Source of the DNA: Planktothricoides raciborskii GIHE-MW2
Lineage (GTDB): Bacteria > Cyanobacteriota > Cyanobacteriia > Cyanobacteriales > Laspinemataceae
Reading direction: 5' to 3'
DNA length: 64,000 bases
NCBI RefSeq assembly: GCF_040564635.1
Contig: NZ_CP159837.1
Location: 1,243,001 to 1,307,000 of the forward strand
A program made the translations under genes and the position numbers. Position 1 is the first letter of the stretch; the number at the start of each line of letters is the position of its first letter. The notes beneath the pieces are model-generated. The model saw only the letters and a program-made list of their open reading frames with translations, did no database searches and had not been told where the DNA came from. Shown here piece by piece: positions 42,077 to 54,498 of this stretch.

Positions 42077-42303
42077 CCCCTACATTGGTAAAACTCATCA
42101 CCGTTTTTTCCCTCTTGATCATCGGTTGCCAAATTAATTACCCCATAAATCAACCCATCCGCTGCCAAATTAATTACCCCATCAATCAACCCATCCGTTG
42201 CCAACACCCAAAGAATCCCTACCCAAAGAATCCCTACCCAAAGAATCCCTACCCAAAGAATCCCTACCCAAAGAATCCCTACCCAACAACCACTCTAAAA
42301 TGA
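42067..42303 (+). CDS. Possible small lipoprotein with PKNPY repeats
   Basis: A 78-residue frame begins inside the preceding palindrome with LVKLITVFSLLIIGCQ, which looks like a lipoprotein signal ending in a lipobox cysteine. It then has two copies of a 12-residue unit (NYPINQPIRCQI) and five copies of PKNPY. Both DNA repeat units (36 and 15 bp) are multiples of three. There is no ribosome binding site and the start lies in a repeat, so this may be a chance frame. Confidence 0.3.
   Translation: MLRPPTLVKLITVFSLLIIGCQINYPINQPIRCQINYPINQPIRCQHPKNPYPKNPYPKNPYPKNPYPKNPYPTTTLK
42128..42280 (+). repeat. Two tandem repeat arrays (36-mer x2, 15-mer x5)
   Basis: A 36-bp unit is present twice (42128-42163 and 42164-42199, three mismatches). 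It is followed by five exact copies of ACCCAAAGAATCCCT (42206-42280). The array lies just beyond the stop of the minus-strand STAND pseudogene. Confidence 0.95.
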
Positions 42304-42705
42304 CAAAAACTCATCCATTTCTGCCACTTCTCGCCGCATCAATAAATGGCGAAAATCTTCCCTAGCTAAAGCAGCCCAATATTTTGCTTCTTGCCAATTT
42401 TTTTGGGCTTTTTTCAATAAGGCAAATGCCCGCTTACAAAAAGCCAAACAACGGCGATCGCCATTCTTTTCCACCTCTGGTAAAGCCTCTTTTAACAAAA
42501 CCTCAGCTTTTGGAAGTAAATTCAGGCTAATGGCAACCAAAGCTAACCAAATTTGGCAAAAAATCATCGCTCGATGCCAACCAGTTTTCCTAGCTTCTTC
42601 TGCGGCTTTTTCATATTTGCGCTGGAATAAACTCGGCTTTTTTAAAATGCAGTTCCCCGCGATAGTAAAGAATTTGAATGGGAATTCGGGGATGTCTGGG
42701 GTCAT
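42295..42705 (-). pseudogene. STAND NTPase pseudogene, C-terminal fragment (TPR-like)
   Basis: The 3' part of a broken gene. From about 42630 downward the frame reads YEKAAEEARKTGWHRAMIFCQIWL and AEVLLKEALPEVEKN, helical repeats of the TPR type that end NB-ARC proteins. It continues the preceding fragment after one extra base in the A-run at about 42618-42620: removing one A joins FIPAQ to YEKAAEEA. The first 25 residues of this frame (upstream of the join) are spurious. Ends before the 15-mer array. Confidence 0.65.
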
Positions 42706-43903
42706 TAGGGGGCAGATTTTGGTACAATTTAGTCACTTCACTAAACCATTGATTAGCAGCGCTTTCATTTTGTTGATGAACCTGGAGCACTGCCATGTCC
42801 AAGGCTAAATTGATGCTAATGGTTAGTTGATAAGTTTGACATAGTTGCCAAGCCTGGTTTAACAGTTGGGTTGCTTCTTGTCGATCTTCCGGTTGATCTA
42901 GTAAAATTAGGGTGCGACTTTTATCCCCGATCGCCTCTACCACCGTCAGCCAATCGGCTCGGTTTTCCGCTGTTTCTCGCCACCAATCCATCCAGCGCAA
43001 CCGTTCCGACCAATATCCAGCAAAATGGGTATAGCCTTTAAGGTATTGCCAAAATTGACCAAAATCTTCATAGCGATCTGCCATAATTGTCCATTCGATC
43101 GCTTCACTTATATTTTCCCATTCTTGGTCTAATTCTGTAAATTCACTCCATTCTTGTGCATCGGTTTTGCCATACTTTTGGCAATAGTTTAAATACCATT
43201 TCACCCAGCGATCGCGGGCAAGTTTCTCGAAGTTGGGATAACTTTGGAGTTCAGTTAATACATAACCCCGCGTCAAGGGCAACATTTGATAGCGTCCTTG
43301 ATGCAGTTTCACCAGAAATAACTGTTGCAACGGGGCAAAATGATTCAGGTCGGGAACATTCCCTACTGCGCTGACAGCTTCTGGTAAAGCAGGATTGGGA
43401 AAAATAGCCAAAGCCATGAGCAGAAAATGGGGCGGTTTTTCCCGCAAAGGAATCACCGAACCCTGGAAACAATAGCGGGCAATTTCTCCGTCGGAGTGAT
43501 TCAAATTGGCGATCGCTTCAGTGAAATGATAACCGGCACTCAGTTGACCAATAGTATAAACAATTGCCGCCGGAATTCCCCCGGTAGTGGTATAAATGAC
43601 CTCCGCTTGTTTAGGCGTAACCGGGATATCTTTTTCCTGGGCGTGATGGTTGATTAAATGCAGGCTATCTTTTTTATTAAAACATTCTAGGCGAATCGAA
43701 ACATCTAATAAAGCTTGTTGACGGCTAGTAATCAATACTTTTACCGTAGGGGGCGCTTCAAGTAAAAAAGAACGCACATCATTTAAATCTGCCGCTGTTT
43801 CCAGATTATCGATCATTAATAAAGTGCGTTGATAAGATAAGCAATCCAGAATTTCCTCCAGTTGGCGATCGCTATCTCCCATCAGTAGATCGTGACGTTG
43901 CAA
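42611..43903 (-). pseudogene. STAND NTPase pseudogene, NB-ARC middle fragment
   Basis: Central part of the broken gene: Walker B in TLLMIDNLETA, sensor region VKVLITSRQQALLD, GxP-type TTGGIPAAIVYTIGQL, winged-helix and ARC region (MLPLTRGYVLTEL), then helical repeats to FKKAEFIPAQ. The frame is really open above the first methionine to about 43938 (EIFRTIARTLQRHDLL), which joins the N-terminal fragment after a single missing base. It ends at a TGA caused by the second frameshift. Together the pieces make a protein of about 798 residues. Confidence 0.7.
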
Positions 43904-44688
43904 AGTACGGGCGATCGTGCGGAAAATTTCTGACTATTCTCTTTTTTTAACCGAGGTAAAATACCCGTACTCGTGAGTCGGTGGGGTTTCGCCGAAGTAA
44001 AAATCATCGCGTCAAAATTCGGCGATTCTGCTGACTCTAAAAAAGCATAAGCCGCTTCCACAATTAACGTAGTTTTGCCTGCCCCACCAATTCCTTCAAC
44101 GCTAATGCGATGGATGCGACTATCCCAAGATAAGAGTTTCAGCAAGCGATTCAATTGTTTTTCGTGACCGATAAAAGTAGTGTGATCGCGGGTGGGGAGG
44201 TTTTGGTAAATCCGTTGTGGAGGGAAAAAATTTCCCATCGCCCTTTGTCCCCCTCTTAATAATAGGAGTTGGGGTAATAGGGGTTGGGTGAATCCTGTAG
44301 TCATGGGTTGGTTTCCCTTCCCTGGGTTTCCTCTGTCGTCGGGTTGGGAGTATCCATCCGAGGTAAATTCCCCAGGATATTCTCTGAGCAAAGCTTGTCG
44401 CAGTTTTGGTAGTATTTCTTTTTTTAGAATGGTTTTCGTATTTGCATCCACGACCCCCACTTTTTTCAAAGCAGCAGTTAATTTTCTCCGCAATTTGGGA
44501 GAAATTGTTTGCCTGAGATAATCGGGGGTGAATTTGATGGATTTATCGCTAGTTATTTGTTCATAACTGCGATCGCTGATGATGCCTTGGAGGGTGATCT
44601 TCTCTAAATCAGAGAAAATTTCATTAGTCGTTCGTTCGAGTAACTGTTGGGCAAAGGCGAAAAGTTCTTGCACTTCTTCTTGATTCAT
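43882..44688 (-). pseudogene. STAND NTPase pseudogene, N-terminal wHTH and P-loop fragment
   Basis: N-terminal part of the broken gene. Residues 1-110 carry the cyanobacterial helix-turn-helix domain found before NB-ARC domains (GIISDRSYEQITSDKSIKFT, YLRQTISPKLRRKLTAALKK). A linker follows, then FIGHEKQLNRLLKLL and the P-loop EGIGGAGKTTLIVEAA. The frame slips near 43935 and ends in nonsense (QKFSARSPVLCN). The slip is not at the A7 run: a -1 shift there would meet TAG at once. So this is a true one-base loss or a sequencing error, not programmed frameshifting. Such proteins are sensors in conflict systems. Confidence 0.7.
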
Positions 44689-45024
44689 GGGTCAAAAAAA
44701 TTAAACGGTTTGCGGTTGATAGCTGACAGTTGATGGGGGTGCAACGAAGATACATATATAGAATGCACCCATTGACGGTTATTTTTTGTCCTTGGTCATT
44801 GGTCATAAGTCCTTTGTCTGTATTTAAATCTACAAAAATGTTAAACATTAAAAAATATTTATGCAACTGGGATTTGGTTGGCGATGAAAGGGTTTGCTAA
44901 GGGCTACCCTAGCAAGTTAAATACATTCAGAACCCAGGGCGGAAATATCTCCGTATTTTTGCGGAGATATTCAATGTTTTTGCCTGAAAATAAACTTTAC
45001 AAAAGTTTACAAAAGTTACCGTTA

Positions 45025-45307
45025 GCGACATTTTGCGACATGGGAAAAATGTCGCAAATTTTTCGAGCGGCAAGGCCAAAAGAGGCGATCGCCGCTTCAG
45101 TCCTAGGCTACACAAAGGATTTAGGCTAAGGCTGATGATAATTATACCGCAATTGTCCACCAAAAATTAGATAAATTTAGTAATGATTTTCATCGACATT
45201 TTTAATGGTTATTTAAAGTGTTGGTAAAATGTCGAAAAATGTCGAAAAATGTCGCAAAATGTCGCAATACATGGGTCTTGACAGTTGATTTTTAGATCGG
45301 TTAACAT
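45025..45307 (+). promoter_or_regulatory. ATGTCGC operator arrays with sigma70 promoter, copy A
   Basis: GCGACAT sites at 45025 and 45035 and a facing ATGTCGC at 45049 form an upstream cluster. A second cluster has ATGTCGA/C at 45229, 45239, 45249 and 45259, exactly 10 bp apart. The last one ends 12 nt before TTGACA (45278-45283), which is followed after 17 nt by TTAACAT (45301-45307). The geometry repeats at 49726-50009. It is likely the promoter of the secreted-protein gene at 45578. The spacer 44689-45577 has no other gene. Confidence 0.75.
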
Positions 45308-45577
45308 CGGTGTTAAGAAATTAAAAAGTTAATCAGCGGTCGATTAAAACACGACACAAGCAAAGGGGCTTTACCAAAAATTTGACTCATGGCTTTACCG
45401 GGGAATTATCTATTTAGGGAATTGAAGGTCAGCCTTGGCAATTTTTCGGTTAATTCTTTTCGTTACTGTAAGACAGTTTTTCCGTATTTTTAAGTCAGAA
45501 CCAGGGAACGAGTTTAAGTCGAAAAATGCGATGGGCGATCGTTGTGCTGTAATTTCTGTAATTAAGGAGTTTTTTCT

Positions 45578-46216
45578 GTGAAAATCAAGCAAAAATTCAT
45601 AAACCGTACAATAGCGGGAACTGTCACTATCTTGGCCATATTGGGGAGCATTCCCGAAGTGATTCAAGCAAAAAATGCTTGGTCAAGTTATAGCAATACA
45701 TCAGAAAATATCGGTTTAGATATTCGCCTTAAACAACGAGGCCAAATTCGACCCGAAACAAGTCAGAGAGTTGTTCAAACAAAACGGCAAAATATGGGAG
45801 GAGGGTATAGTGAAGTAGAAGCCACTCTCTATCGCGATGGATCGTTGAGGATTCAAGGTTCCGCGATTGCTACGGAGCGAACACAAGGTGTTCGCGCTAC
45901 AGTTAATGTAGTTGGATATGACAGAAGAGGAAATACATTATTTGTCTCACAACCCTTGGATATACCTACAGCTTGCGGAAAATGGGATCCAAGTTGTTCT
46001 TCACGTGCCAGCGGTCTGAGCAATCAGAACATCTCTCCTGAAATAGCCAAGTATATAAGTCATCTTCACCTAGAGTTTTCTGAGCGTCAAGGTCCTGATA
46101 TTTTTCAAAGAACCACGCAATTGATTCGCCAGACTTGTACCAGCTACAATTATCTGCCTGTTGCCGCTCGGGCTGCTATAGCTTATCAAACCGGCTTTCC
46201 AGGATGTAATTTTTAG
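45578..46216 (+). CDS. Exported hypothetical protein
   Basis: The 212-residue protein has a signal peptide (GTVTILAILGSIPEVIQA, cleavage about residue 31) and a mature beta-rich domain with ATLYRDGSLRIQGSAIATERTQG and four cysteines (CGKWDPSCSS, RQTCTSYNY, FPGCNF) that could form two disulfides. I do not recognise the family. A GTG start is supported by AAGGAG 8 nt upstream. The segment encoding TERTQGVRAT is a small palindrome (GAACAC-AAG-GTGTTC) inserted in frame. It lies downstream of operator/promoter copy A. Confidence 0.8.
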   Translation: MKIKQKFINRTIAGTVTILAILGSIPEVIQAKNAWSSYSNTSENIGLDIRLKQRGQIRPETSQRVVQTKRQNMGGGYSEVEATLYRDGSLRIQGSAIATERTQGVRATVNVVGYDRRGNTLFVSQPLDIPTACGKWDPSCSSRASGLSNQNISPEIAKYISHLHLEFSERQGPDIFQRTTQLIRQTCTSYNYLPVAARAAIAYQTGFPGCNF

Positions 46217-46349
46217 ATAAAACCAAATGTAATAACGTGACAATTATCCTTACCCACTGCCTTCGGATAAGGATATAACGAAAGAGAGATCGCCCCTCAC
46301 AGCTAAATCAATCAAAAGGTCGATCGCCTTTTTTTACCAGGGTTCATTT

Positions 46350-46423
46350 GGTGCGTTACGGCGGCGCAATTGAAGGTTATTTGTGGTTAGAAAAAATTTT
46401 CGCGCCGCCTAACACACCCTACC
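46350..46423. repeat. 74-bp dispersed repeat, copy 1
   Basis: Begins GGTGCGTTAC-GGCGGCGC and ends CGCGCCGCCTAACACACCCT-ACC. The GCGGCGC...GCGCCGC arms and GGTGCGTTA...TAACACACC ends make it a long imperfect palindrome. A copy of the same length is at 57677-57750. No gene lies in 46217-46515. Confidence 0.85.
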
Positions 46424-46515
46424 AATGATGGGCGATCGCATCTTCGGATTTCTTATATTATAATTGTCCATGAGCGCAACTCACAATACTCACAATATCA
46501 TAAATTAACCAAAAG

Positions 46516-47616
46516 ATGAAATTAACTAAAGGTTTGAGACTATTTTACCAAATTAGTATTGCCTCTATCCTCATATTGTCTACCTCTTCTTGCTTTGATT
46601 TAGGAAAGGTAGACAATACCTTAGCTGAGTTCGATCGAGCCATTAATCGCTTAGAGAACGAATCGGCCAATTGGCGTCAGGTGGTTAAAGACTTGGAAAG
46701 TTCAACTAAAGAAACTATTAGCTATGAATTAGAAAACTTTGCTGAAACTACCATAAATACTGCGGGAGCAGAAATGCGATGTAATGCTACTTTTGTCAAT
46801 GACTATGTTGGCTATGAACTTCAGAAAAAAATTCTCAAAAAAAGAAACGAGTTAGCCCAAAAAATTGGAGCATCTCCCCGAACCATACCCGCCCCCCTAC
46901 CTGTGATTTGTAATGATCCAAAACAAATAATCTTAAAAGGAAACCAACCCCAAACTTCATCGGTTGAGTTATATGGCTATTACCTGAATCCTAACGAGTT
47001 TCAAATTATTGCAGAGTTGAATGAACAAGCAGCCCGAAAAGCTAAGATAGAAAATCCTAGTTCTCCTAGAGTTATCAAGAAAAGGTTAGCTGGGGGTCAA
47101 TTTAAGGTGTCTCTAAATTTAGGAGAGAATGGAATTTCCGGTGATTTACTCCAAATAATCGATCGCATTATTCTGAAAAGCCAGAATCAGGAAATATATA
47201 TCCTTCATGTAATTCATACCCGTGCAGAACGCACCAAAGCAAAAGTTACAGTAAATTTCAAATCCGTTTATCTTGAGGATGATGCCGATCCGGCTGGGTC
47301 AGCGGAAGTGGATTTCACTTTTCGGGTCAACGGTCAGACAAAAACTTGGCGAAACTCTAATGCCAATAGCGGGAGGACTTATTCAGTTAATAAACAATTT
47401 CAGGTAACTTTATCCAAAGAAGAAAATCTGAGTATTTATGTCAATGGTGTGGATGAAGATGGCGGGTGGATGGACGAAGACGATCCATTAGGACAAGTTA
47501 CAGAAACTTTTTCCGCTAGTAGAAACTGGGGATTGGGGAGTCACAATCTGAGAAGTAATTGCCCCGATGGATGTTATTACGTTAACTTTGATGTAAATGT
47601 TGACTGGATTGATTGA
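46516..47616 (+). CDS. Putative lipoprotein, unknown family
   Basis: The 366-residue protein begins with a lipoprotein signal (IASILILSTSSC; lipobox cysteine at residue 26). A helical segment follows (TLAEFDRAINRLENESANWRQVVKD), then a central region with two cysteines (AEMRCNATF, VICNDPK). The C-terminal beta domain has acidic loops (YLEDDADPAGSAEVDF, VDEDGGWMDEDDPLGQV) that look suited to calcium binding. I do not recognise a family. It follows the exported protein at 45578 on the same strand, separated by a 74-bp repeat. Likely anchored in the outer or inner membrane facing the periplasm. Confidence 0.8.
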   Translation: MKLTKGLRLFYQISIASILILSTSSCFDLGKVDNTLAEFDRAINRLENESANWRQVVKDLESSTKETISYELENFAETTINTAGAEMRCNATFVNDYVGYELQKKILKKRNELAQKIGASPRTIPAPLPVICNDPKQIILKGNQPQTSSVELYGYYLNPNEFQIIAELNEQAARKAKIENPSSPRVIKKRLAGGQFKVSLNLGENGISGDLLQIIDRIILKSQNQEIYILHVIHTRAERTKAKVTVNFKSVYLEDDADPAGSAEVDFTFRVNGQTKTWRNSNANSGRTYSVNKQFQVTLSKEENLSIYVNGVDEDGGWMDEDDPLGQVTETFSASRNWGLGSHNLRSNCPDGCYYVNFDVNVDWID

Positions 47617-47679
47617 ACGGAGGAGCGATCGCTTTTTTGTGGGGGCGATCGCTTTTCTTAGGGAGACAGAAACCGGGGC

Positions 47680-47743
47680 AGAAACCGGGTTTCTATAGAA
47701 ATCTCGGCCTGGATACCAAAATTATCGGAGAAACCCGGTTTCT
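47680..47743. repeat. AGAAACCGGGTTTCT repeat pair
   Basis: AGAAACCGGGTTTCT (47680-47694) and AGAAACCCGGTTTCT (47729-47743) are each palindromic and flank AGAAATCTCGGCC-type sequence. Further copies lie at 48597-48656, 57782-57846, 58215-58300 and 58990-59085, making this the commonest dispersed repeat of the window. This one and the 48597 copy bound the duplicated DUF2887 genes. Confidence 0.85.
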
Positions 47744-47757
47744 GTTTCTCTCACTGG

Positions 47758-48552
47758 TTAAGATCCAGTATTTTCCGCTGATTTATCAGCAACCTGCTGC
47801 ACCAATTTTATATCCAAATTTAACGCCTGGGCAACTTGTTCTACACTTAAACCCACTGCCAATAAACTAGGCACAGATTCCAGTTTACCCTCTTCTTTAC
47901 CTTCTTCTTTCCCTTGTTGGTAAACTCTTGTTTGTTTTAAATCACTTAAGCTAAACATTGCTTGGATTTCCTCCTTGGTTAATTCAGTAAATTTATAAAT
48001 CAACACCGTTTCTACTAATTCTACAACTTTTGCCTTCAACCCTGGATCACTCAGTTGGTTCGCTTGCTGCATAGCTTGGGCGGTCAGGGGTTTGGCTGTC
48101 TCTTTATCTCCCACCACCAACTGCACAATACTCAGTCCCAGGGAGGGAGAATCTGACAGGGTAAGTTCATCCAAATAGACAAGTTTCAATTGCTGACTCA
48201 TCAGCAAACCCCGATATTGAACCGGCACTTCTGGGGCTATTCTCTTAGAGACAAATACCGCGATCGCACACCAATCTTGAGTGGGTTGATATTGACCCAG
48301 ATACACAAATATTTCCGTAAAAAAGCGCCAGTAAAAGTCGGATTTTTCCTGAAACTGCACTTCCACGAAATAAATGGGTAAATCCGCATCTGCCGCTGGC
48401 AAAAATATGCCATCAAACCGGCGAGCCAGTTCTTTAATTTCCCTAGAGGAGAATTCATAGCTGTTGGCGGATTTTGGGTCAGCCCCAATCAGTTCAAATA
48501 CCAGACTAGGAAATGTCTGAAATAATTGATAAAATATCGTATCAGTTCTCAT
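47758..48552 (-). CDS. DUF2887/Rpn-like putative nuclease, duplicate 1
   Basis: The 264-residue protein starts MRTDTIFYQLFQTFPSLVFE and has the PD-(D/E)XK-like core RRFDGIFLPAADADLPIYFV followed by EVQFQ, typical of the DUF2887 family (Rpn/transposase_31 superfamily). A C-terminal part holds the charged repeat QQGKEEGKEEGKLE. Such proteins are recombination-promoting nucleases or defence-related; the cellular role is unknown. It is the downstream member of a tandem duplication about 961 bp in unit length. The two copies differ mainly in the repeat and at a few residues near both ends. Confidence 0.88.
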   Translation of the reverse strand: MRTDTIFYQLFQTFPSLVFELIGADPKSANSYEFSSREIKELARRFDGIFLPAADADLPIYFVEVQFQEKSDFYWRFFTEIFVYLGQYQPTQDWCAIAVFVSKRIAPEVPVQYRGLLMSQQLKLVYLDELTLSDSPSLGLSIVQLVVGDKETAKPLTAQAMQQANQLSDPGLKAKVVELVETVLIYKFTELTKEEIQAMFSLSDLKQTRVYQQGKEEGKEEGKLESVPSLLAVGLSVEQVAQALNLDIKLVQQVADKSAENTGS

Positions 48553-48670
48553 TGATTAATTTGAGTAATTCCTGATTTAAATTATACCATAATCACAGAA
48601 ACCGGGTTTATATAGATATATCGGGCTAGAACCCAAAACGCCGCAACCCGGTTTCTGTTTCTCTCACTGG

Positions 48671-49513
48671 TTAAGATTTAGGATTTTCCGCTGATTTAGA
48701 GGCAACCTGCTGCACCAATTGTATATCCAAATTTAACGCCTGGGCAACTTGTTCTACACTTAAACCCACTGCCAATAAACTAGGCACCGATTCCAGTTTA
48801 CCTTCCAGTTTACCTTCCAGTTTACCTTCCAGTTTACCTTCTTGTTTACCTTCTTGTTTACCTTCTTCTTTCCCTTGTTGGTAAACTCTTGTTTGTTTTA
48901 AATCACTTAAGCTAAACATTGCTTGGATTTCCTCCTTGGTTAATTCAGTAAATTTATAAATCAACACCGTTTCTACTAATTCTACAACTTTTGCCTTCAA
49001 CCCTGGATCACTCAGTTGGTTCGCTTGCTGCATAGCTTGGGCGGTCAGGGGTTTGGCTGTCTCTTTATCTCCCACCACCAACTGCACAATACTCAGTCCC
49101 AGGGAGGGAGAATCTGACAGGGTAAGTTCATCCAAATAGACAAGTTTCAATTGCTGACTCATCAGCAAACCCCGATATTGAACCGGCACTTCTGGGGCTA
49201 TTCTCTTAGAGACAAATACCGCGATCGCACACCAATCTTGAGTGGGTTGATATTGACCCAGATACACAAATATTTCCGTAAAAAAGCGCCAGTAAAAGTC
49301 AGATTTTTCCTGAAACTGCACTTCCACGAAATAAATGGGTAAATCCGCATCTGCCGCTGGCAAAAATATGCCATCAAACCGGCGAGCCAGTTCTTTAATT
49401 TCCCTAGAGGAGAATTCATAGTTACTGGCGGATTTTGGGTCAGCCCCAATCAGTTCAAATACCAGACTAGGAAATGTCTGAAATAATTGATAAAATATCG
49501 TATCAGTTCTCAT
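48671..49513 (-). CDS. DUF2887/Rpn-like putative nuclease, duplicate 2
   Basis: Nearly identical to the neighbouring copy but 280 residues long. The difference comes from an expanded four-residue repeat (GKQE, GKLE units; seven copies against three) encoded by 12-bp direct repeats at about 48796-48875. Other changes are NS to SN near residue 30 and a variant C-terminus. Upstream sequence (TGATTAATTTGAGTAATTCC) is also duplicated, so both copies may share one promoter design. Recent duplication with replication slippage in the repeat is the simplest history. Confidence 0.88.
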   Translation of the reverse strand: MRTDTIFYQLFQTFPSLVFELIGADPKSASNYEFSSREIKELARRFDGIFLPAADADLPIYFVEVQFQEKSDFYWRFFTEIFVYLGQYQPTQDWCAIAVFVSKRIAPEVPVQYRGLLMSQQLKLVYLDELTLSDSPSLGLSIVQLVVGDKETAKPLTAQAMQQANQLSDPGLKAKVVELVETVLIYKFTELTKEEIQAMFSLSDLKQTRVYQQGKEEGKQEGKQEGKLEGKLEGKLEGKLESVPSLLAVGLSVEQVAQALNLDIQLVQQVASKSAENPKS

Positions 49514-49617
49514 TGATTAATTTGAGTAATTCCTGATTTAAATTATACCATTTGTTTCGGCGGGCGGTAATTTCTATTCCAGAAAGCTTTCTTGGGGCAA
49601 AATACCTCCTGTGCCTT

Positions 49618-49670
49618 CTCGGTGACTCTGTGGTAAAAATGAACCAAAAATGAACCACAGAGTCACCGAG
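49618..49670. repeat. CTCGGTGACTCTGTGGT inverted repeat
   Basis: Perfect 17-bp arms (49618-49634 and 49654-49670) with a 19-nt loop that contains GAACCAAAAATGAACC. Related to the CACAGAG palindrome beside ftsH. Confidence 0.85.
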
Positions 49671-49725
49671 GTTACAGAAAGTGCTTAAATGTCATTTTTA
49701 ACAAATCTTTACAAAACTTTTAGCT

Positions 49726-50009
49726 GCGACATTTTGCGACATTTTGCGACATTTTGCGACATGGGGTAATATGTCGCAAAAATTTTTTGCTGAGAGATAA
49801 GTCAGGGAAAGCATTGGTTGAAACCTTTGCCATACAAAGGGTGTATAGGTATCATAAGTGTAAATCTGGAAAAAATTTGCGCCTTTTTTTTTGCTAAATG
49901 TGAGGCAAAAATTTGCCGGATTTGTTGATTTTTTTAAAAAATAATGTCGAATGTCGAATAATGTCGCAGATTATGGCTATTGACAACTTAGATTTAACTT
50001 GTTTAACAT
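49726..50009 (+). promoter_or_regulatory. ATGTCGC operator arrays with sigma70 promoter, copy B
   Basis: Four GCGACAT sites at exact 10-bp steps (49726, 49736, 49746, 49756) face one ATGTCGC at 49771. A second cluster has ATGTCGA at 49944 and 49951 and ATGTCGC at 49961. The last ends 12 nt before TTGACA (49980-49985); 17 nt later comes TTAACAT (50003-50009). The layout is that of copy A at 45025-45307. It reads toward the kinase gene at 50483. The spacer 49552-50482 otherwise holds repeats and one doubtful minus-strand frame (50085-50357). Confidence 0.75.
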
Positions 50010-50317
50010 TGAAGGTAATCAAATTAAATTTTAATCCTGAGTGACTTTAAACGTGGCATACTCAAAGGATTTGCCCTGAAATACTTACTGGCAGCATCTC
50101 CCAATGCTTATCTTCACAATATCCGTAATTATACGGAGGTTTATATCTTCGGTTTCACGGTTGATTAGTTGACAAACAACAAGAAATATTCCCGGATGTT
50201 TCTCTAATGTTTGGTGACAATCTATACAGATTATTGTTGCTGTAAATCCAATGATAAGCAGCGACCAAAAGTACCACAAGCAAAAGTAGCCATTGGTGGG
50301 AAGACCCGCGCATTTCG

Positions 50318-50482: not shown

Positions 50483-51994
50483 ATGATTGACCAACTGCTT
50501 GACCAACGTTATAAAGTTTTGCAAATTCTCGGCGCCGGTGGTTTTGGCCGCACTTATATTGCCCAAGATATGAAACAACCCAGTAAGCCGAAATGCGTGA
50601 TTAAACAACTTCTCCCCCAGGGAGTTGATGACCCTACTTTGTCCGATGCTTCGCGGGAAAATCGTTGGGGCTTGGCGCATAAATTTTTCGAAAAAGAAGC
50701 GGAAATTTTGGAAGTTCTGGGCAACCATGACCAGGTTCCCCGGTTACTGGCTTATTTTGAAGAAAACCAAGAATTCTACTTGGTGCAAGAGTTTATTGAT
50801 GGCCTCACTTTGGGGTCTGAACTAATTCAAGGTCAACCTTGGTCGGAAAAACAAGTAATTGCTTTGCTGAAAAATGTTTTAACGGTTTTGGAGTTTGTCC
50901 ACGGCAATAATGTGATTCACCGAGATATTAAACCGGATAATATTATTCGCCGCAAACTCGATAATAAATTAGTGTTGGTGGACTTTGGCGCGGTCAAGCA
51001 AGTGCGCGGTCAAATGGTGACAAATTCTGGGGCATTTGGTTGGACGGTTTGTATTGGTACTGAAGGATATCGCCCCCCAGAACAAGCGGCAGGGCGTCCC
51101 CGTTTGAATAGCGATCTTTATGCTTTGGGGATGATTGCGATTCAAGCATTAACGGGAATCAATGCTTTCGATCTGCGCTTGAATTATAGCGATTCAAATA
51201 CCGATGAAATTCAATGGCAAGATAAAGTAACCAATGTTAGCCCGGGATTAATTGAGTTTTTAACCAAGATGTTGCGTCAAAACTGGCGCGATCGCTACGA
51301 AAGTGCCACCGCAGCCTTACAAGCACTGGAGTCTCTAACCGCGAGTCTCCCTGGAAATAACTATCAGCCCACCGTGGTTCCCACCGCAGTTGCTACTCAG
51401 TTGCCCGTGACCACCCATCGACCCGCACCTGTTGCAGGTACGGAAGTGGCACCCGCAGCACAGCCTACACCAAAACCTACACCACAACCCACACCACAAA
51501 CCACACCACAAACCACACTAGCAAGCACACCAGCAACTACAGTATCTAAGACTGCTTCTAAGAATGCTTCAAAACCACTGCCCCTCAAGCCGATCGGTTT
51601 AGCAGTTGCCGGAATTTTGGCATTAGCTTTGGTGGGCGGTGGTGTGCGATCGCTCATGGGTTCTTCAGGAGATTCTAAGCTTGCGGTTTCTAATTCTCCG
51701 ACTAACTCGGAGGTTCAGTCTGACGATGAATTAATCAGTTCGGGCGATCGCATTTTAATCCCCAACGAAGGCGTAGATAACAAAGAATTCGAGGAATTAA
51801 AAAAAGCTGGAGTGGACGCAATGGCGGCTAAAGACTATGCCAAAGCTAAAGAAAACTTTCAGCAAGCTCTTGGGATTAAGAAAAATGCCCCGGAAACTCT
51901 CATTTATCTGAATAATGCCAAGATTGGTGATGCTAAATCCTACAGGCTGCTGTTGTGCCGATTAAAGATGGTAAAGAGCCAGGGCGATCGCTAG
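50483..51994 (+). pseudogene. Ser/Thr kinase with TM and TPR, 5' part of a frameshifted receptor
   Basis: The first 280 residues are a complete PknB-type kinase: GAGGFG glycine loop (17-22), Lys41, HRDIKPDN (146-153), DFG (167-169). A Pro/Thr-rich spacer follows (residues 300-360), a membrane span (PIGLAVAGILALALVGGGVRSL), and a TPR-like unit (GVDAMAAKDYAKAKENFQQALGI). After DAKSY the frame slips into nonsense (RLLLCRLKM). The other frame continues AAVVPIKDGKEPG at the same spot, so one base was lost at about 51943. The kinase may still be made but without its sensor. Confidence 0.8.
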
Positions 51995-53064
51995 AAATGT
52001 TGCGGGGATTTGCCCAAGCCCAAGAAGAAGTGAATAAAAACGGGGGCATTAATGGCGTACCGCTAAAACTGACGATCGTCAACGACTACGATGACAAAGA
52101 TAAAGCCAAAATGCTGGCAGAAAAACTGGTCAAGGATTCTAACATTCTGGGGATCATGGGACACCATATCGGTTCGGTTAGTGAAGCGGTGGCGCCGATT
52201 TATCAACGAGAAAAATTAGTGTTAATTACCCCAATCAGTGTGAATGATGAAATCACCAATGACAAAACCCCCTATTTGTTCCGAACCAATCGAGCCAATA
52301 TTGAAAAAGGGTCTAATGAATTAGTTCATTACATGGTGAACAATTGGCAGAGGCAAAAAGTAGCGATCTTTTCTAATGGAAAATTGGATTACATTAAAAA
52401 AATGAAAACTTCTTTTGAGGATGAATTGTTTAATAAAGGGGAGGTCGTTGGTGAGTTCGATTTATCCCTAGATGGTTTTAATGCCTATCAAAGCCTGAAA
52501 ACCGCTAAAGAAAAAGGGGCAGAGGTAATTCTATTATTACCCAGCCTCGGAGATTTAAATAAAACCTGGGAACTCTTACGGGTAAAAAATGAATATCCTA
52601 ACGAATTTGGTGACTTAAAAGTTTTAGGAGATATTGTCACTTTATATCGCCTGGAAACCTTAAAAAATGGACGCGATACCGAAGGTATGGTATTGGCAGT
52701 TTCCTGGCAATTCAATCCAGAAGCTGGGGGTTTTTCTCAGGATGCTGATACACTTTGGGGAGGGGGCGTTAACTGGGTTACAGCTATGTCTTATGATGCC
52801 GGTAAAGCATTTATTGCGGCGATGGAAAAAAGTGAGAATCCCACTCGTGAAAATATTCAACAGGAACTCAGTAATGACAGTTTTGTCACCGAGGGAGCTT
52901 CTGGACCAATCAAGTTTAAAGAGAATGATGTGACACCTCCTTCTTTACATATGGTCACTGTTAAGAAGCAAGCTTCGGTGGAAGAAAGTATTTCTAAAAC
53001 AGGCTATGATTTTGTTCCAGCTAAATCAGCATCAGCGCAGGAAGCAGAAGTTCCCAATTATTAA
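51955..53064 (+). pseudogene. Periplasmic ligand-binding domain, 3' part of the frameshifted receptor
   Basis: The 369-residue frame is a type I periplasmic binding domain of the branched-chain amino acid (LIVBP/Peripla_BP_6) type: VPIKDGKEPGRSLEMLRGFA, AQEEVNKNGGINGVPLKL, MGHHIGSVSEAVAPIYQREK, FEDELFNKGEVVGEFD, and GASGPIKFKENDV near the end. It has no signal peptide and no ribosome binding site. It is really the ectodomain of the upstream kinase, and the whole was one protein of about 860 residues: cytoplasmic kinase, TM, TPR, periplasmic ligand-binding domain. Confidence 0.8.
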
Positions 53065-53260: not shown

Positions 53261-53809
53261 ATGTCGATGAATCTGGTATTAAGCTCTAAAAATTGCCGCC
53301 TGTTTTTTACCGGACAAGGCATTTCCCTGGTTGGACAGTGGATGACAAAAGTGGCTGCCGGTTGGTTGGTGTATCAGCTAACTCACTCTGCTTTTTTACT
53401 AGGTTTGGTGGCATTCACTGATGATATTGCTAGTTTACTTGTAGCCCCTTTTACGGGAGTGTTACTCGACCAATGGAACCGGCAACGGGTTTTAATTCTG
53501 ACTCAGACTTTTGCGATGGTTCAGACTTTGGCCGTAGGGGTTTTCTGTTTGACAGGTCATATCGATATTTACGGGATGATTGCCCTGAGTTTGTGCCAAG
53601 GTTGTATTAAGGCTTTTGATCTGCCTGCCCGACAATTTTTTATTGCCGAAATTGTCGATAAAAAAACGGAAATTGGGGAGGCGATCGCGCTTAATTCGTT
53701 AATGATTAGTCTCGGTCGGTTACTCGGCCCTGCTTTAGGGGATGGGCGATCGTTAATTTGGGGATTGGCTTGTGTTTTTTGTTCGATGGATTTACTTATA
53801 TGTTTGTGA
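53261..53809 (+). pseudogene. MFS transporter, N-terminal part (frameshifted)
   Basis: The frame covers TM1-TM5 of an MFS exporter of the EntS/MFS_3 type (NCRLFFTGQGISLVGQWMT, GVLLDQWNRQRVLI, CIKAFDLPARQFFIAEI, LGRLLGPAL). After GPAL it turns to nonsense (GDGRSLIWG). The other frame gives GWAIVNLGIGLCFLFDGFTY at the same place, so a single base is missing around 53740. An ATG at 53227 in another phase has GAGG nearby, so the N-terminus itself is not fully certain. The substrate is unknown. Confidence 0.8.
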
Positions 53810-54498
53810 TTGCCGCCTTATTAATGATTAAAATATCTCCCGCTAAAAATACCCGTTCAACCCAAGTCGATCGCCCTTGGAAAAAATTGCAACAAGGATT
53901 CGCATATATAGTAAAATTTCCCGATATAGGCTTCATTCTCCTGTTACTAGGCTTAGTGAGTTTTATGGCCATGCCTTATACTTCTTTAACGCCCATATTT
54001 GCCAAAGAAATTTTGCAAGGCAATGCCGAAACTCTGGGTTTTATGCTATCCTTTGCTGGACTAGGTTCTTTAATCGGCAGCCTATATTTGCTGTTCAAAA
54101 TTAAAATCTTCGGTTTAGAAAAAATTATTCCTCTATCCACCGGATTAGCTGGCATCAGTCTGATGGTATTTTCTCAATCAGAAAATGTTATAATATCCTT
54201 TATATCCTTGTACTTAGTCGGATTTGCCTTAAGTTTACAAGTTGCATCGAGCAATACCATATTACAAATTCTGTCACCCGATGATAAACGAGGCCGAATT
54301 ATGAGTTTATTTGCCATTGCTTTTGTCGGCATGACCCCATTAGGAAATTTAATGAGTGGCTTTATGGCCGATCGCCTCGGTGTGGTGACAACTTTAACCA
54401 TCAATGGTCTGATTTGTTTGATTGCCGCTGGCATATTTTCCCAGCAAATTCAACCGCTCCAGCGTTCTTTAAAACGTTTGGTAAATTGTGAACCTTAA
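53758..54498 (+). pseudogene. MFS transporter, C-terminal part (frameshifted)
   Basis: This frame holds TM6-TM12 (FVIAALLMIKISPAK, IGFILLLLGLVSFMAMPYTS, LGFMLSFAGLGSLIGSLYLL, IISFISLYLVGFALSLQVAS) and the conserved SPDDKRGRIMSL loop. It starts inside the preceding fragment with no ribosome binding site. Both halves have sound amino-acid patterns right up to the slip, which points to a recent mutation or a sequencing error rather than old decay. Confidence 0.8.

Follow-up and report, generated by a model that had tools for sequence, protein, structure and literature searches.

The stretch of DNA analysed here (hereinafter referred to as the window) comprises 64,000 nt of the 7.2-Mb genome of Planktothricoides raciborskii GIHE-MW2 (G000; NZ_CP159837.1, positions 1,243,001 to 1,307,000 of the forward strand). 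It contains two paired operator-like modules, A and B, each consisting of two clusters of ATGTCG-type sites upstream of a promoter, and a gene for a STAND-type ATPase, the candidate regulator, divergent from module A. In module A, cluster 1 (45025-45055) consisted of minus-strand ATGTCGC at 45025-45031 and 45035-45041, one 10-bp step apart, and a facing ATGTCGC at 45049-45055. It was followed by an interior (45056-45228), by cluster 2 on the plus strand (45229-45265; four ATGTCG(A/C) in 10-bp steps at 45229, 45239, 45249, and 45259) and, 12 nt after the final site, by the plus-strand promoter TTGACA-N18-TAACAT (45278-45307), with TTGACA at 45278-45283 and TAACAT at 45302-45307. In module B, cluster 1 (49726-49777) had minus-strand ATGTCGC at 49726, 49736, 49746, and 49756 and a facing ATGTCGC at 49771-49777, cluster 2 (49944-49967, plus strand) had three ATGTCG(A/C) at 49944, 49951, and 49961, and TTGACA-N18-TAACAT was located at 49980-50009 of the plus strand (TTGACA 49980-49985, TAACAT 50004-50009). 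The original prediction had described one design shared by two promoters, and direct re-reading of the sites confirmed it, with corrections: the 10-bp step held in both modules except between 49944 and 49951, which are 7 bp apart and followed by a step of 10, and the promoter, given as TTGACA-N17-TTAACAT, was there, but its -10 element should rather be taken as TAACAT behind an 18-bp spacer.

The modules were the sole paired ATGTCG arrays in the genome. ATGTCGC occurred 14 times in the window against 5.47 expected, a count reached by none of 100 shuffles. Genome-wide, all 8 matches of ATGTCGN4ATGTCG were inside modules A and B (reversed-pattern control, 3), the facing pair GCGACATN5-12ATGTCGC was confined to them (control, 0), and they accounted for two of the three places with TTGACAN15-19TTAACATNG (control, 0). 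The cluster units were mostly AAAATGTCGC or AAAATGTCGA with small changes, and the array fits the decamer frame (AAAA[AT]GTnnn)n seen upstream of many genes for STAND ATPases with a helix-turn-helix (HTH)-type domain. The free letters at positions 8-10 (hereinafter the word) were CGC or CGA at all module sites read in the window.

In addition, an HLR1-like direct repeat, putatively an RpaB-type box, preceded cluster 1 in both modules: TTTACAAA-AG-TTTACAAA at 44996-45013 (plus strand) in module A, and TTAACAAA-TC-TTTACAAA at 49698-49715 (plus strand) in module B. Against the HLR1 consensus given in the accessible text of PMC11633204, (G/T)TTACA(T/A)(T/A)NN(G/T)TTACA(T/A)(T/A), the former was a full match and the latter had one mismatch; the upstream half diverged among relatives, and the half read TTTGCAAA in G157. 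This repeat is shared with HLR1/RpaB promoters, but HLR1 is a side element here and the ATGTCG array word is different.

The original prediction would have been refuted by absence of the pattern from relatives. The pattern was found there: among the 14 genomes of the family that were compared, module A was present in 7 and module B in 4. All three genomes of the genus examined had both (G000, G001, and G002; G001 belongs to the same species as the window). Full-length BLAST matches to module A were obtained in six genomes (G000, G001, G002, G212, G114, and G097; 75-100% identity), and the seventh copy, too diverged for BLAST, was found in G157 by reading upstream of the STAND gene (three GCGACA at 10-bp steps with TTGACA-N18-TAATAT). 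Module B was matched by BLAST in G000, G001, G002, and G097. Identity between genera was 75-77% for module A and 78% for module B (G097). In G097, module A lay at 2.139 Mb and module B at 6.224 Mb of a single 7.69-Mb contig, about 4.1 Mb apart; they are therefore independently kept promoters that do not depend on adjacency. Since a fixed geometry upstream of a promoter has persisted at each of two separate loci, the modules are most naturally taken as two targets of one regulator, in agreement with the single regulon proposed at the outset.

The distance from the last TGTCGN to TTGACA was exactly 12 nt in 10 of the 11 modules, as predicted; in the exception, G157, the last intact site was 22 nt from TTGACA, with a degenerate in-phase site in between (by eye). 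Other parts were less constant. The -35/-10 spacer was 17 bp in G212 and G114. The facing ATGTCGC, present in both modules of the window, is not a fixed element: that of module A was complete in G000, G001, and G002 and incomplete in G097, G114, and G212 (CTGTCGA there), and that of module B was lost in G097. The filler, predicted to be unconserved, differed between A and B, but it was conserved among A copies and among B copies, and the interior of module A retained the core (A/C)TAATnATACCGCAATT in the six closest orthologs.

The number of sites varied by whole 10-bp units; cluster 2 of module B had one unit fewer in the window than in G001, and cluster 1 of module B in G097 was one unit shorter than in the other three genomes. 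Such variation, together with ATGTAGC decamers beside dispersed repeats at 5417600 and 2557720 of the genome, favors slippage-prone repeats or mobile-element ends without an operator role. This explanation is nevertheless very improbable, given the 12 nt to TTGACA kept in 10 of 11 modules, the direct orientation of the modules, the absence of both arrays elsewhere in the genome, their retention across genera, and the covariation of array words with a protein domain described below. Transposon ends, named as a possible refutation in the original prediction, were rejected because the modules lie in direct rather than inverted orientation and because the rest of the genome is free of the arrays (transposases were not searched for). 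A BLAST search of module A against plasmids gave no match.

The candidate regulator beside module A, a predicted HTH-NB-ARC-TPR protein, is encoded on the minus strand, in the window as an N-terminal piece (43882-44688), a middle piece with NB-ARC in a different frame (42611-43903), and a C-terminal piece (42295-42705). Orthologs (best piece at least 65% identical; A-type proteins) were found in 7 of the 14 family genomes. Module A adjoined all seven, and the gene was divergent from it in each. The gene was without inner stops in G097, G212, G114, and G157, and the G097 protein was 84% identical to the middle piece of the window. In the STAND protein of locus L094, NB-ARC (PF00931) was detected with an E-value of 2.8e-17 (63.3 bits against a cut-off of 23.5) and TPR_12 with 39.3 bits (over its 30.1), whereas TPR_MalT (E-value 1.1e-8, 35.2 bits) was under its 45-bit cut-off. 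The HTH-like domain was placed within residues 1-105; its helical model had a pLDDT of 89.8 and a pTM of 0.81, and the top Foldseek match was FixJ (probability 0.97, TM 0.51, E-value 0.42), the next among the 50 matches listed having a probability of 0.20. The best E-values among 11 paralog domains were those of GerE (6e-4) and Sigma70_r4 (0.0076), both weak profile matches. Because sigma region 2 was unmatched in the six proteins scanned, a regulator is preferred over a sigma factor. In NCBIfam, the STAND proteins had sub-cut-off matches only; PADLOC returned nothing for the two STAND proteins tested, and a viral-contig search for the STAND protein confirmed no relative among 82 candidate stretches.

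The array proved to be no isolated curiosity. Among 388 genomes of the order, the three-unit ATGTCG pattern was matched in 14, which gave nine loci besides modules A and B. Six of the nine (G010, G141, G105, G122 twice, and G151) were directly upstream of an ORF (open reading frame) with an HTH-type N-terminal domain, and NB-ARC was present in all three of these ORFs tested. A profile of the domain matched 361 of the 388 genomes and 54 places in the genome of the window. In the 170 bp upstream of 50 of these 54 matches (four low-scoring ones, two of them with stops, were omitted), the best period was 10 in 22, 9 in 4, and another period in 9, at a value reached by at most 1 of 200 shuffles. 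In control stretches 930-1100 bp upstream, periods 10 and 9 were each found in 0 of 50 and other periods in 6. Earlier period tests gave period 10 in 11 and period 7 in 1 of the 30 best-scoring loci, and, for 30 own-genome paralogs at 15 of 20 matches, period 10 in 12, 9 in 4, 7 in 2, and 12 and 14 in one each; the control stretch of the latter test gave none.

A model of the repeat unit, in which the letters at positions 8-10 were left free, was applied to 175 HTH-STAND loci from 66 genomes. A 9-11-bp-phased array just upstream scored above the 99th shuffle percentile at 113 of the 175 loci, against 2 of 175 shuffles, and at 86 of the 125 loci outside the own genome; periods 10, 9, and 11 were found in 99, 10, and 4 of the 113, respectively. 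Of the 30 loci in the first batch, 25 were used in the other-genome set; four A-type loci (L146, L149, L153, and L166) were omitted, and L147 was counted as own genome. The second batch omitted L239, L240, and L248 (same species, own, and already included), L266-L268 were unused, and L241, L242, L243, and L260 were dropped for cut contigs. At 49 of 112 loci, a TATAAT-like -10 element lay 0-6 nt after a GTnn site (30 of them at 1 nt), against 8 in shuffles. In many family promoters the array abutted the -10 element without a clear -35 (by eye), so that both activation and repression are possible there.

The decamer pattern had 25 matches in the genome of the window, which were grouped by coordinates into 14 places: eight HTH-STAND promoters, the two window modules, two places beside dispersed repeats, one place that precedes the gene of a probable exported protein by about 100 bp, and one inside a long ORF. 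The place before the exported-protein gene consists of three TAGTCGGTAA units (G000:C1:6430288-6430326, L340) in opposite orientation to this gene, whose product has 281 aa, and is perhaps a further target. At the two places beside dispersed repeats (G000:C1:5417600-5417829 and 2557720; L336 and L346), ATGTAGC decamer runs in the same 10-bp frame adjoined a GTAGGGTGTGTTAGGC-type repeat, and no HTH-STAND domain was found in the 9-11 kb fetched.

To relate the protein to the word, mutual information was calculated for every combination of a domain column with a free letter of the DNA in 112 loci from 42 genomes (L207 and L234, with duplicate domain sequences, had been removed, of which only L234 was among the 113 above the threshold). 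Residues 51, 55, and 52 ranked top. These residues are at the start of the fourth, predicted recognition, helix in the model, as placed by alignment with L127. After clustering at 70% identity (n = 60), the top three pairs were D55 with position 8 (z = 10.6), Y52 with position 10 (z = 9.3), and G51 with position 8 (z = 8.7); the fourth and fifth (z = 5.9 and 5.3) also involved 55, 52, or 51. C8 accompanied G51 in 42 of 51 loci and other residues in 10 of 61, G8 accompanied D51 in 10 of 11, and G10 accompanied H52 in 62 of 70 and other residues in 20 of 42. The pairs G51-C8, D55-C8, and H52-G10 each held when the own genome and the other genomes were considered separately. At the level of whole helices, and with exceptions, xGH(V/I)(R/K)D went mostly with CGG, xDHV(K/R)K with GGG or GGC, S(E/K)SHVKN with ACG, and NESYVRDVG with TGG. 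In partial Mantel tests, the correlation of the word with the recognition helix, given the rest of the domain, was 0.276 (maximum of 500 permutations, 0.143), and that with the rest of the domain, given the helix, was 0.112 (maximum, 0.179).

The phased arrays and the covariation of word and residues together provide good evidence that the HTH-like N-terminal domain of the family reads the arrays, as judged from sequence comparison. We consider it likely that a large cyanobacterial family of HTH-STAND ATPases exists in which many members have a private 9-11-bp-phased decamer operator beside their own -10 element, with residues 51, 52, and 55 setting the variable letters of the decamer. This would amount to a readable protein-to-DNA code and to many largely separate autoregulatory circuits per cell, and the arrays of the window would in addition drive separate targets. 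For modules A and B, we propose a role as operators for a transcription regulator of the STAND type, the likeliest one being the NB-ARC/TPR ATPase divergent from module A, and put the probability of this at roughly two in three. The A-type arrays may act on the divergent operon and also, in four genomes, at module B. The original prediction named no regulator; a candidate is now seen to be encoded beside module A.

Several points weigh against these proposals. In both the window and G001, the STAND gene is divided into three ORFs, and in G002 it has one in-frame stop. Module A and the gene are adjacent, and their co-occurrence is thus largely linkage; module B was found in 4 of the 7 genomes with an ortholog, in none of the 6 without any match, and not in the one with a diverged gene (G080), numbers too small for a firm conclusion. 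The HTH-like domain had no PDB match at an E-value of 0.001, A-type proteins had no Pfam HTH match at an E-value of 1, and Sigma70_r4 was below its cut-off in the single member with cut-offs shown. Residue 51 of A-type proteins is D, K, or E with the word constant at CGC/CGA, while D51 elsewhere pairs with G8; a recognition helix conforming to the code was sought in the A-type protein and was absent. None of six A-type genes examined had a TGTCG array within 170 bp of its own start. As for the family, three of the nine loci outside modules A and B (G171, G079, and G188) lacked the HTH-type domain in the 12-18 kb fetched, and the domain profile (A2) had been seeded partly from array-bearing genes. 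The unit weights behind the 113 of 175 loci were set by hand after the own-genome arrays had been seen, the scoring permitted periods 9-11 alone and penalised 9 and 11, and some 25 of the 125 upstream regions from other genomes had previously been read by eye. A reversed decamer pattern gave 8 matches in the genome-wide search. Nearest-neighbour prediction of the word from the own genome reached 0.708 with the helix and 0.694 with the rest of the domain (shuffled, 0.539); the helix is barely better, and part of the signal therefore comes from shared descent.

The A-type recognition helix carries one extra residue compared with the paralogs. Owing to this and to the variable residue 51 with an unchanged word, the rule derived from the paralogs cannot prove that A-type proteins read the arrays, and this step is carried by linkage and by the logic of the family. 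The variable helix beside a constant word would also suit an unlinked winged-helix response regulator of the OmpR/PhoB type, or another factor, binding the arrays next to an incidental STAND gene. OmpR-type activators suit tandem 10-11-bp direct repeats upstream of a -35 element, the arrangement seen here; moreover, HLR1, the site of the response regulator RpaB, adjoins cluster 1, and the modules persist in the window species although the STAND gene is broken. We regard this alternative as unlikely in view of the arrays found family-wide upstream of HTH-STAND genes, the covariation of residues and word, and the adjacency of module A and the STAND gene in 7 of 7 genomes.

Intact modules beside a broken gene would likewise be accounted for if another HTH-STAND paralog, e.g., L170 (helix TEGYVRD, TTGTCGG arrays), also or instead bound the window modules. 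The TGTCG core is common to both, paralogs with G51 and D55 pair with C8, and the genome offers 54 domain matches. The word was, however, CGG in the five L170 units called and CGC or CGA in the window, and module A tracks the A-type gene, for which reasons we give a paralog only a small chance.

If the STAND ATPase is the regulator, it would, by analogy with MalT, multimerise when its sensor is triggered, and the multimer would place numerous N-terminal HTH domains side by side on successive 10-bp sites along one face of the DNA. On cluster 2, which ends 12 nt before a good -35 element, the multimer would recruit RNA polymerase and activate transcription; geometry is the sole basis for this step at modules A and B. 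Cluster 1, mirrored and roughly 170-200 bp upstream, would be a second landing site for the same or another multimer, and the two clusters may be joined by a loop. The HLR1-like box beside cluster 1 would add light or redox input via RpaB. As the regulator gene is interrupted in the window species, this regulation may have disappeared or changed there, or a paralog may have taken it over. MalT of Escherichia coli has its HTH domain at the C-terminus, whereas the HTH-like domain of the candidate is N-terminal, and the word, the 10-bp step, and the mirrored two-cluster layout also set the modules apart from MalT boxes. The two proteins are alike in being STAND ATPases with, by prediction in our case, a helical-repeat sensor and a FixJ/LuxR-type HTH domain; according to the accessible text of PMC4381067, multimerisation of MalT leads to cooperative binding to the MalT boxes of its target promoters and to polymerase recruitment.

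The targets are probably exported proteins for module A and a receptor-like kinase for module B, as the original prediction had it, with differences among genomes. In the window, the first ORF after module A (45578-46216, plus strand) encoded a 212-aa protein that is probably exported (by eye), and neither it nor the 366-aa ORF after the module had a Pfam match at an E-value of 0.001. The first gene in the corresponding position of G002 encoded a COP23 protein, and trypsin-like and subtilase proteases, a TPR protein, and others were also found after module A there. The leading proteins in G212 closely resembled those of G002 (by eye), and in G097 two COP23 proteins and a trypsin-like protease were present. 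Downstream of module B (50483-53064, plus strand), a Ser/Thr kinase (50483-51994) and a Peripla_BP_6 receptor part (51955-53064) were separate ORFs in the window and split in G001, and formed one intact 855-aa gene in G002. The nearest ORFs downstream of module B in G097 encoded the remnant of a transporter, a WD40 protein containing an FHA-like part, and four kinases in a row, which were similar to the module B kinase. PADLOC matched the receptor kinase to PD-T4-6 and the protease to LmuA/RT-protease; both were set aside as looking like shared-domain matches.

Three genes near the modules, namely the STAND gene (42295-44688), the kinase-receptor gene (50483-53064), and an MFS-like transporter gene (53261-54498, by eye), were broken up into ORFs that overlap, both in the window and in G001; the kinase and the transporter were each a single ORF in G002. 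The splits may reflect either local decay or shared sequence errors. Between the modules, two similar DUF2887-type genes were located at 47758-49513 (one was scanned), and they had no match within 16 kb around module A of G097. A palindromic CTCCGTATTTTTGCGGAG was present at 44949-44966, upstream of module A, and CCGTAATTATACGG at 50123-50136 in the leader downstream of module B; related CCGTATA motifs recurred among relatives (by eye). In the interior of module A, the kept ATAATTATACCGCAATT (45138-45154) reads TATAAT on the minus strand (TATGAT in some relatives) and is possibly part of a promoter toward the STAND gene.

Distant relatives of the STAND gene were also inspected. In G080, a 48%-identical STAND gene was divergent from an ORF for an exported lectin-like protein, and next to this ORF came a kinase-receptor gene whose product was 58% identical to the module B kinase of G002; regulator and kinase are thus tied together in a different layout. 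Upstream of this diverged gene (L119, about 1187-1457), AAACTCATA repeats occurred in two clusters about 210-250 bp apart, which may represent another word arranged in much the same way. For L132-L135 and for L131 (G080), the 2.5 kb preceding the match contained no two TGTCG sites spaced 9-11 bp apart. The N-terminus of L133-L135 differed (by eye). In L132 (Calothrix parasitica NIES-267), a 35%-identical STAND gene without TGTCG pairs was divergent from an exported serpin-like ORF (by eye), a further instance of such a regulator paired with an exported protein.

STAND ATPases are related to plant and animal immune receptors and are abundant in filamentous cyanobacteria; to our knowledge, what the cyanobacterial ones act on is mostly unknown. 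In titles and the beginnings of abstracts, with most subscription journals and bioRxiv outside the coverage, no such arrays or word code were described. The accessible text of PMC11119718 counts cyanobacterial proteins with NB-ARC, TPR_MalT, and WD40 as sigma factors with accessory domains. These probably overlap the HTH-STAND family, the likeness being a sigma-70 domain joined to NB-ARC/TPR_MalT/WD40; they differ in that no operator arrays are described in that text and in that the six proteins scanned here lacked sigma region 2. For conflict systems of multicellular bacteria, including cyanobacteria, Kaur et al. (2020, PMC7159879) report STAND NTPases together with trypsin-like peptidases and effector domains of the HTH type, and components of these kinds are found or predicted here; decamer arrays and a word code are not described in the accessible text, and neither vWA nor MoxR was matched among the nine window ORFs scanned.

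If the arrays are STAND operators, an orphan motif in the window would become a two-promoter regulon with a named candidate regulator, and the promoter of each such gene would itself reveal the DNA target of the encoded protein. Gel shifts could then be used to test the effector output of a large set of STAND proteins from bacteria, and dozens of insulated regulator-operator pairs would become available.

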